Positions 17,662 through 18,982 of a DNA stretch of 64,000 nt are shown in pieces (position 1 is the first letter of the stretch; every line of letters starts with the position of its first letter). Source of the DNA: Orenia marismortui DSM 5156 (lineage in GTDB: Bacteria > Bacillota > Halanaerobiia > Halobacteroidales > Halobacteroidaceae). Both the position numbers and the translations under genes were made by a program. The notes below the pieces were generated by a model. That model was not told where the DNA came from. It worked only from the letters and a program-made list of their open reading frames with translations, and ran no database searches. The stretch spans positions 93,538 through 157,537 of the forward strand of contig NZ_KB900622.1 of assembly GCF_000379025.1 (NCBI RefSeq), in the 5' to 3' direction.

Positions 17662-17663
17662 TT
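17642..17663 (-). terminator. Terminator of the winged-helix gene
   Basis: AATGGACCAAA/TTTGGTCCATT, a perfect palindrome overlapping the end of the gene, with TTTTTTATTTGTC on the minus side. Confidence 0.85.
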
Positions 17664-18153
17664 AAAATTTTAAATCCCATACAATATTCTTAGAATCTTT
17701 TTTCTCAGCTTTATCTTCCTTAACACTGTTTACTTCTGACTTTTCTCCATCAACTTCTTCGATATTATCATTAGATAAATCTTCCTTATGATCTTTATCT
17801 AAATCTTCTCCTAAAGAATCTACCTTGTTATTTACTTCTTCAATCTGATCATCTATAGCATCTTCTTTTATAAAGTTATCCTCTAATTCCAACTCCAATA
17901 ATCTCTTACCATTTTCAGTTAACTCATAAAAGACTCTTCTTCCTGCTTGAGAAGATTTTATGAACATATTCTCTTCTAATTCATTTAATACTTCTTCCAT
18001 ATGATATTTACTAATTTTAGCAACTTGCCAAATCTCTTTAGCCGTTATAGGCTCTCCACTAGTAAATAAATTTAAAGACTTATTCAAAGTATCAATAGAC
18101 CTTTGTGATAATTCCGATGATAGGATATTAATACAATCATCACATAATTTCAT
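17662..18153 (-). CDS. Winged-helix DNA-binding protein with acidic tail
   Basis: A 163-aa protein. Residues about 20-90 form a winged helix-turn-helix ('ITAKEIWQVAKISKYHMEEV', then wing 'GRRVFYELTENGKRLLELEL') like MarR/PadR-type regulators. The N-terminus has CDDC. The C-terminal 70 residues are highly charged (D, E, K), probably disordered. The role is unknown. Start ATG behind GAGGAGG. A leader of more than 200 nt with several hairpins lies upstream. Confidence 0.7.
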   Translation of the reverse strand: MKLCDDCINILSSELSQRSIDTLNKSLNLFTSGEPITAKEIWQVAKISKYHMEEVLNELEENMFIKSSQAGRRVFYELTENGKRLLELELEDNFIKEDAIDDQIEEVNNKVDSLGEDLDKDHKEDLSNDNIEEVDGEKSEVNSVKEDKAEKKDSKNIVWDLKF

Positions 18154-18240
18154 CTACCATCCTCCTCTCTTTATATAAAATATATATTTAAAGTAAATCA
18201 AAAGTATACACAACTAATAAAATATATAATTTTATTTTTA

Positions 18241-18384
18241 CCCGCTATTCAAATAGCTCTAATATTAGACCTCAACTTTTAATGACGCAAGGTTGATCCA
18301 GTACGAAGGCCCATTCTTTGGTTCCTCCTTCATCATTTATAGCTTATGATTTAGTACTTCTACTAAGCTGGATAGAACTACTAA
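18241..18384 (-). other. Possible structured leader or decayed element upstream of the winged-helix gene
   Basis: Inverted repeats are dense here: GCTATT/AATAGC (18243-18256), GAAGG/CCTTC near 18303-18330, closing AATGA/TCATT (about 18281-18340), and TTAGTACTTCTA/TAGAACTACTAA (18351-18384, one mismatch). No known riboswitch consensus recognised. Bases 18285-18304 (ACGCAAGGTTGATCCAGTAC) resemble the complement of the 38-bp repeat at 10789. Confidence 0.35.
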
Positions 18385-18441
18385 ATTAAATTGGCATAAG
18401 ACTCTCTATGAAACTAAAAATTTAATTTAGATATAAAAAAA

Positions 18442-18467
18442 CAGCAGGAATGAATTCATTCCTGCTG
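18442..18467. terminator. Terminator of the candidate RNA
   Basis: CAGCAGGAATGAA/TTCATTCCTGCTG, 13 perfect pairs, followed on the minus strand by TTTTTTTAT. Confidence 0.9.
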
Positions 18468-18536
18468 CCTTATCATTGAGTTAATAACTTATCTCAATGA
18501 TCTGGTGGTTAAAGATGTGCTATTCATTATAATCTA

Positions 18537-18593
18537 CTATCTCAACCCGAAACTCCTAAAAGTTTGTTTCGGTATTTGATGTGATGATAGCAT
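18537..18593 (-). CDS. Possible 18-aa peptide MLSSHQIPKQTFRSFGLR
   Basis: ATG at 18593 lies 10 nt behind GGAGG (18608-18604). The 17 bases CCACCTCCATTAATATT containing this site (18601-18617) recur exactly at the sspF ribosome-binding site (18893-18909). The peptide is basic and has no known relative to me. The coding interval overlaps the stems of the candidate RNA, so translation is uncertain. Confidence 0.35.
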   Translation of the reverse strand: MLSSHQIPKQTFRSFGLR

Positions 18594-18680
18594 AAACTAA
18601 CCACCTCCATTAATATTTTAACCAAAATATTAATTATTAAACTGTAAAATATGACCATTTAAATTCATTTTAATTTTTCA

Positions 18681-18718
18681 AATAGAAAGTAGAGGTCAAA
18701 AGACCTCTACTTTCTATT
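18681..18718 (-). terminator. Terminator of sspF
   Basis: AATAGAAAGTAGAGGTC / GACCTCTACTTTCTATT, 17 perfect pairs around AAAA; it overlaps the stop codon. Confidence 0.92.
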
Positions 18719-18884
18719 ATTTTTGCTGAGCCATACTCTCTTCTACCTTCTCTATTGCTCGTTTAACTAATGACCCAGCTTCTCTGGTGGTTATATTACC
18801 CCAATCACCATCTTTGACCTTATCAGCAAATCCTAGCTCTTCAGCCAATTCATATTTTGTCTTATCTGACATAATACGAGCCAT
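18717..18884 (-). CDS. sspF: Small acid-soluble spore protein, SspF-like alpha/beta type
   Basis: A 55-aa protein from ATG 18884 (GGAGGTGG, then 7 nt). It matches B. subtilis SspF in order: 'MSDKTKYELAEELGF', 'VKDGDWGNITTREAGS', 'LVKRAIEKVEESM'. Alpha/beta SASPs coat spore DNA and are made in the forespore under sigma-G, so the organism probably forms endospores. I could not place a convincing sigma-G promoter upstream. A longer reading from 18902 adds MEVEIP across the ribosome-binding site and is not supported. Confidence 0.88.
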   Translation of the reverse strand: MARIMSDKTKYELAEELGFADKVKDGDWGNITTREAGSLVKRAIEKVEESMAQQK

Positions 18885-18982
18885 TGGGATTTCCACCTCC
18901 ATTAATATTATTGGCTAAAATAGCAGTATCCATTCCAGAAAATAATACCAGTTACCTTAAAATTGATGTTTAAGATAGATAA

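Follow-up and report, generated by a model that had tools for sequence, protein, structure and literature searches.

Few small RNAs of the forespore are known. CsfG (Rfam RF00516, 'ylbH') is presented as a forespore small RNA under the control of sigma-F and sigma-G in the passages of PMC9147052 and PMC3574147 that cite Marchais 2011, and the former describes this conserved RNA as having no identified target (PMC9147052). Among small RNAs that carry a short reading frame, the type I toxin mRNAs hok and aapA3 undergo a Shine-Dalgarno (SD)-anti-SD fold-back (PMC6733600), and SR1 is a dual-function RNA whose peptide, SR1P, is functional (PMC8501984).

Within a 64,000-nucleotide stretch of the Orenia marismortui DSM 5156 genome (contig NZ_KB900622.1; hereafter, the window), an element of approximately 175 nt, located on the minus strand from position 18614 down to about 18435, had been predicted from the letters of the DNA to be a spore-expressed RNA or peptide gene. 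The element shares several traits with CsfG: it is a small, structured RNA that ends in its own terminator, has a putative forespore-type promoter, belongs to a spore former and has no known target; however, it has no RF00516 match and no CU-rich motifs. Its identification as CsfG was rejected, since RF00516 was unmatched both in the window at the gathering threshold and in the element at a relaxed one. No other Rfam family matched the window at its gathering score, the relaxed threshold yielded only chance-level matches in the element, and no published description of the element was found in the open literature. The CU-rich single-stranded motifs of CsfG, CCTCCCCAT and TCTTCCTCC, are absent from the window and present at three loci of family f2 of the order (L180, L183 and L191), where CsfG-like sequences with this signature and a terminator score below the Rfam cut-off; none was found in Orenia.

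As in hok and aapA3, a segment of the same small RNA, downstream of a short frame, masks the SD of the element, but the element encodes no conserved hydrophobic toxin, and no sigma-70-type promoter for an antisense RNA was seen inside it. As in SR1, a structured RNA carries a short frame with an SD, whereas the peptide of the element is not conserved. Our best reading of the sequence is that the element is a lineage-restricted, forespore-type structured RNA with a cis-masked start site, which would add a second forespore candidate, unrelated to CsfG, from deep-branching spore formers.

Architecture of the element

The window copy folds on the minus strand into the compact structure that had been predicted, comprising a closing stem, inner stems, an extra hairpin and a terminator (Table 1). 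Read from 18614 downwards, the RNA runs from AUUAAUGGAGGUGGUUAGUUUAUGCUAUC to CUUUAACCACC, followed by a hairpin and a 15-bp terminator. Its fold (MFE -63.7 kcal/mol, z -9.16) was matched in stability by none of 200 dinucleotide shuffles, and hairpin 1 without the terminator gave a z of -4.5. A terminator scan placed a minus-strand site at 18471-18438, with three sites in the region versus 0.2 in shuffles. The closing stem of hairpin 1 consists of 9 bp and contains half of the SD in paired form, leaving the other half, GGA, unpaired. The anticipated 18-codon frame is present, as is the exact 17-nt segment common to the element and the sspF leader, AATATTAATGGAGGTGG; the description of this segment as a ribosome-binding site required refinement, given that it covers the SD and the -10 promoter region as well. 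A near-perfect palindrome found in the window copy only, TTAATATTTTGGTTAAAATATTAA (18610-18633), lies over the -10 region of the promoter and is a possible operator.

Table 1. Coordinates of the element, its parts and the adjoining sspF gene in the window.
Feature	Position	Strand	Basis or remark
sspF, upstream neighbour, alpha/beta-type SASP	18717..18902	-	Pfam PF00269, E 4.6e-9
sspF-type promoter: -35-like GTTTA (18642-18638), 24 nt, TTAATGG; -10 region TAAAATA	18614..18642	-	
Shine-Dalgarno GGAGGTGGTTA and start ATG (18593-18591)	18591..18608	-	sequence
Hairpin 1, closing stem GGUGGUUAG with CUUUAACCACC	18504..18605	-	folds
Hairpin 1, inner arm, tip CCGAAAC/GUUUCGG	18572-18547	-	folds
18-codon frame MLSSHQIPKQTFRSFGLR	18537..18593	-	peptide not conserved
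Hairpin 2, separate, AUCAUUGAG/CUCAAUGAU	18472..18501	-	found in 5/5 full copies
Intrinsic terminator, 15-bp stem and T run	18435..18471	-	fold, terminator scan

Copies of the element in related genomes

A DNA search for elements of the same design, conducted in 61 related genomes, showed the element to be limited to Orenia and one further genus, Halonatronum. Five full copies were found in four genomes, namely the window copy and four in relatives: the genome termed G001, which is assigned with the window genome to the same genus as O. metallireducens (G002); O. metallireducens itself; and G004, which shares an identical sspF locus with Halonatronum saccharophilum. In each of the three Orenia genomes the element directly follows sspF, and the sspF genes of other genera end without such an element. 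O. metallireducens possesses a second copy at an unlinked site (G002:C10:43404), and the diverged G004 copy is located not beside sspF, but a short way upstream of a gene homologous to the one at 17662-18153 in the window. Every full copy retains the sspF-type promoter spacing, the GGAGGTG motif, an ATG that follows it by 8-10 nt, a 3' segment that masks the SD, the second hairpin and the terminator, and whole-element folding is strong throughout (z -6.2 to -9.8).

The five full copies served to build a covariance model (R2), which recovered all of them at 59-102 bits and added a sixth, decayed copy in G001 (G001:C9:707483-707637, 38.5 bits). This copy occupies the site that corresponds to the second O. 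metallireducens copy, the neighbour genes that precede the two being 86% identical, and its -35 G, SD, ATG and closing stem have all changed. The next match, in G024 (34.6 bits), lacks GGAGG, and the matches below it are sspF genes of family f2 (28-33 bits). Another model with N-filled interiors (R1) was too weak, missing two of its own members, and its other matches (L113, L115, L116, L117, L120, L121 and L123) were discarded after inspection. Scanning SD-like sites (up to three mismatches) for a masking partner in the three Orenia genomes and chosen relatives revealed no further paralogues; among AT-rich loci of the order, the combination of SD and masking partner occurs essentially only in elements and sspF genes. 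The G004 paralogue of the 379-aa gene has no element after it. The gene preceding the second copy (L033 2-919; L274) encodes an unnamed protein that contains the JAMM-like motif HTHPGGTG and has a second paralogue in G001, G002 and G004 only and gave no Pfam or NCBIfam match.

Promoter and kinship with sspF

The neighbouring gene is, as originally proposed, a genuine sspF of the alpha/beta-type SASP family. In all five full elements, GTTTA or GAATA stands exactly 24 nt ahead of TTAATGG or TTTAATGG, and sspF genes carry like promoter motifs with a spacing of 24 or 25 nt. Such a layout is that expected of forespore (sigma-F/sigma-G) promoters. Against a consensus that does not rest on mapped start sites, the -10 region found in the window copy matches weakly. 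In O. metallireducens, the 45-nt stretch ahead of the element resembles the one ahead of sspF beyond chance (z 6.7). The element promoter is probably of a forespore, sigma-F/sigma-G-like type, the RNA being made in the developing spore, and the predicted transcript would start at or just ahead of the SD. For comparison, sspA of C. difficile is under sigma-G control (PMC3789829).

The sspF mRNA leader and the element have in common the promoter layout, a 17-nt leader, the SD and the potential for pairing between GGUGGUUA, a segment of the SD, and its complement UAACCACC, whereas the element lacks a SASP coding sequence and possesses hairpin 2. In sspF, the NITT residues are encoded by AAT ATA ACC ACC (18786-18797 on the minus strand of the window), a stretch that is near-invariant in AT-rich relatives and found also at loci L034, L037-L041, L043, L046-L048 and L051-L055. 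ACC accounts for 27 of the 586 Thr codons (under 5%) in long window frames. Because the ACC-ACC stretch is complementary to the sspF SD, translation of sspF may be self-masked, and in folds of sspF mRNAs the SD pairs with these codons in many cases, not all. Thus, the ACC-ACC codons can mask their own SD in these models, an indication that we regard as suggestive only, since the SD side differs among sspF genes and the codons show no matching change. The occurrence of the same GGUGGUUA:UAACCACC module in the element suggests, without proving, descent from a duplicated sspF, and makes sspF a possible target.

The sspF genes of G001 and G002 have no strong terminator of their own. In the window, a perfect 17-bp stem (18681-18718) immediately follows the sspF stop codon; it looks like a plus-strand terminator, since its T run lies on the plus strand only, and may let sspF transcription run on into the element.

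Evolution of the stems and of the reading frame

In the alignment of the five full copies, which was trimmed and structured by hand and is therefore biased towards structure, 93% of the cells of the closing stem and hairpin 2 are paired and nine pairs have changed on both sides; none of 500 shuffles scored as high, and slid controls scored far lower. Within this same hand-trimmed alignment, the closing stem is paired in 97.5% of cells over the five sequences, with one two-sided change, and hairpin 2 shows two-sided changes in eight of its ten pairs. A cleaner test was provided by the orthologous G001/G002 pair, aligned over its full length with MAFFT. Here, six two-sided compensatory changes were found where 1.1 would be expected (P 0.0005), and five pairs were broken, compared with an expectation of 11 (P 0.0035). 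When only hairpins 1 and 2 were considered together, four compensatory changes were observed versus 1.0 expected (P 0.009); taken singly, neither hairpin reaches significance. The compensatory stem changes for which the original prediction had called were thus observed, in a small sample.

The reading frame behaves differently. The peptides in relatives are MLSLSHVKEKQRLAEKNPLTGYDEL, MYLLFHSKEKQSLEEKQPLIGYSEL, MTSLFLKESLFWSNAE and MKKSANQKKNKFKRDAIGEGLE; those of G001 and G002 form a pair, and the peptide of the window copy and the other two are related neither to this pair nor to one another. The G001 and G002 frames are both intact and 25 codons long. Their substitutions fall 4/7/4 at codon positions 1/2/3, and dN (0.25) exceeds dS (0.17) in this short and sole alignable pair, and two of the compensated stem pairs lie within the frame and alter amino acids. 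Three of the micropeptides were searched against Pfam and gave no match, and, with GRAVY values from -1.54 to 0.14, the element peptides are not hydrophobic membrane toxins. A conserved 18-codon peptide is thus not borne out: the peptides are unrelated from lineage to lineage, and the one alignable pair shows no purifying selection. Since the stems change in a compensatory manner and the peptides are unrelated, the shape of the RNA is what is kept; the well-spaced ATG of all five full copies means that a non-conserved peptide may be translated. Of the alternatives first envisaged, a spore-expressed RNA or peptide, a structured RNA is supported by the architecture, the compensatory changes and the sspF-like promoter layout, and a conserved peptide is not.

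Interpretation and alternative explanations

Because the fold is kept in related species and the tiny protein is not, a new small regulatory RNA is favoured over a peptide gene. We would give an even chance to the reading that the element, as a gene standing on its own, encodes a structured small RNA and not a peptide. A cis-acting leader is excluded by the unlinked positions of the two O. metallireducens copies. In the proposed mechanism, an RNA of approximately 175 nt would arise from an sspF-type forespore promoter of its own, begin at or just ahead of the SD, and be ended by its own terminator. A stem of 8-9 bp would close the long 5' hairpin, pairing half of the SD and enclosing the start codon, with two more hairpins behind it, and little or no translation would be expected while this stem is closed. 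Action would proceed through the sole sequence-conserved segments, the SD-like GGUGGUUA and the anti-SD UAACCACC, beyond which no conserved unpaired seed was seen. As sspF-type mRNAs carry SDs to which the anti-SD is a full or partial match, the likeliest action would be to tune translation of these mRNAs in the forespore, which is the weakest step of the proposal.

The retention of the ATG and its spacing from the SD in every full copy counts against a purely non-coding RNA, which would have no need of them, and favours a small mRNA for a fast-evolving spore micropeptide, whose translation the stem would hold low until opened, or which would be translated co-transcriptionally, before the anti-SD has been synthesized. 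The equal-length, intact 25-codon frames of G001 and G002 and the unpaired GGA half of the SD in the window fold agree with such an mRNA; nevertheless, the unrelatedness of the peptides across lineages, the 4/7/4 substitutions with dN above dS, the amino acid changes caused by two compensated stem pairs and the lack of a Pfam match speak against it, and we judge it unlikely, if worth keeping in view. A type I toxin mRNA, silenced by SD-anti-SD fold-back, would likewise explain why the SD of a small stable RNA should be masked by a segment lying far downstream, an arrangement shared with aapA3 and hok (PMC6733600). This is a very improbable explanation, given that the peptides are neither hydrophobic (GRAVY -1.54 to 0.14) nor conserved and that a scan of the plus strand inside the element for promoters of the sigma-70 type, the only type sought, detected none that could drive an antisense RNA.

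The element could instead be what is left of a tandem duplication of sspF, or else an extended terminator or 3' UTR of the sspF transcript, with no role beyond ending transcription. Its position right after sspF in the three Orenia genomes, the lack of a strong terminator belonging to sspF itself in G001 and G002, the sspF-like promoter, the common SD/anti-SD module, the presence of sspF genes among the nearest R2 matches and the visible decay of one copy would all fit. Such an origin in termination or decay does not account for the second O. metallireducens copy and the G004 copy, neither of which is beside sspF, nor for compensatory changes outside the terminator, and we hold it to be rather improbable. 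Returning to the structured regulatory RNA, the element is perhaps derived from a duplicated sspF leader. A more far-reaching scenario, which we regard as doubtful, is that the sspF-type mRNAs of the order are self-masked by the rare, near-invariant ACC-ACC codons, and that Orenia and the related genus split this module off as a separate forespore RNA acting on sspF-type mRNAs by competition or repression, in a conversion from coding to regulatory function. An element that may stem from the leader of a spore-protein gene, with its ribosome-binding site kept but locked, would offer a testable case of a messenger becoming a regulatory RNA.

Neighbouring features

Between the element and the downstream winged-helix gene, at 18230-18330 on the minus strand, a strong SD (GGAGG) precedes an 11-codon frame, MGLRTGSTLRH, whose sequence was found in the window genome only among the loci compared and whose fold is not unusual (z -1.5). 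The element as a cis leader of the winged-helix gene (17662-18153) was discarded, as the two are unlinked in G002 and 2 kb apart in G001, and a terminator lies between them. The winged-helix protein, encoded on the minus strand and starting MKLCDDCI, matched no curated family above cut-off. It occurs in family f1 of the order, and its gene often adjoins sspF or the element.
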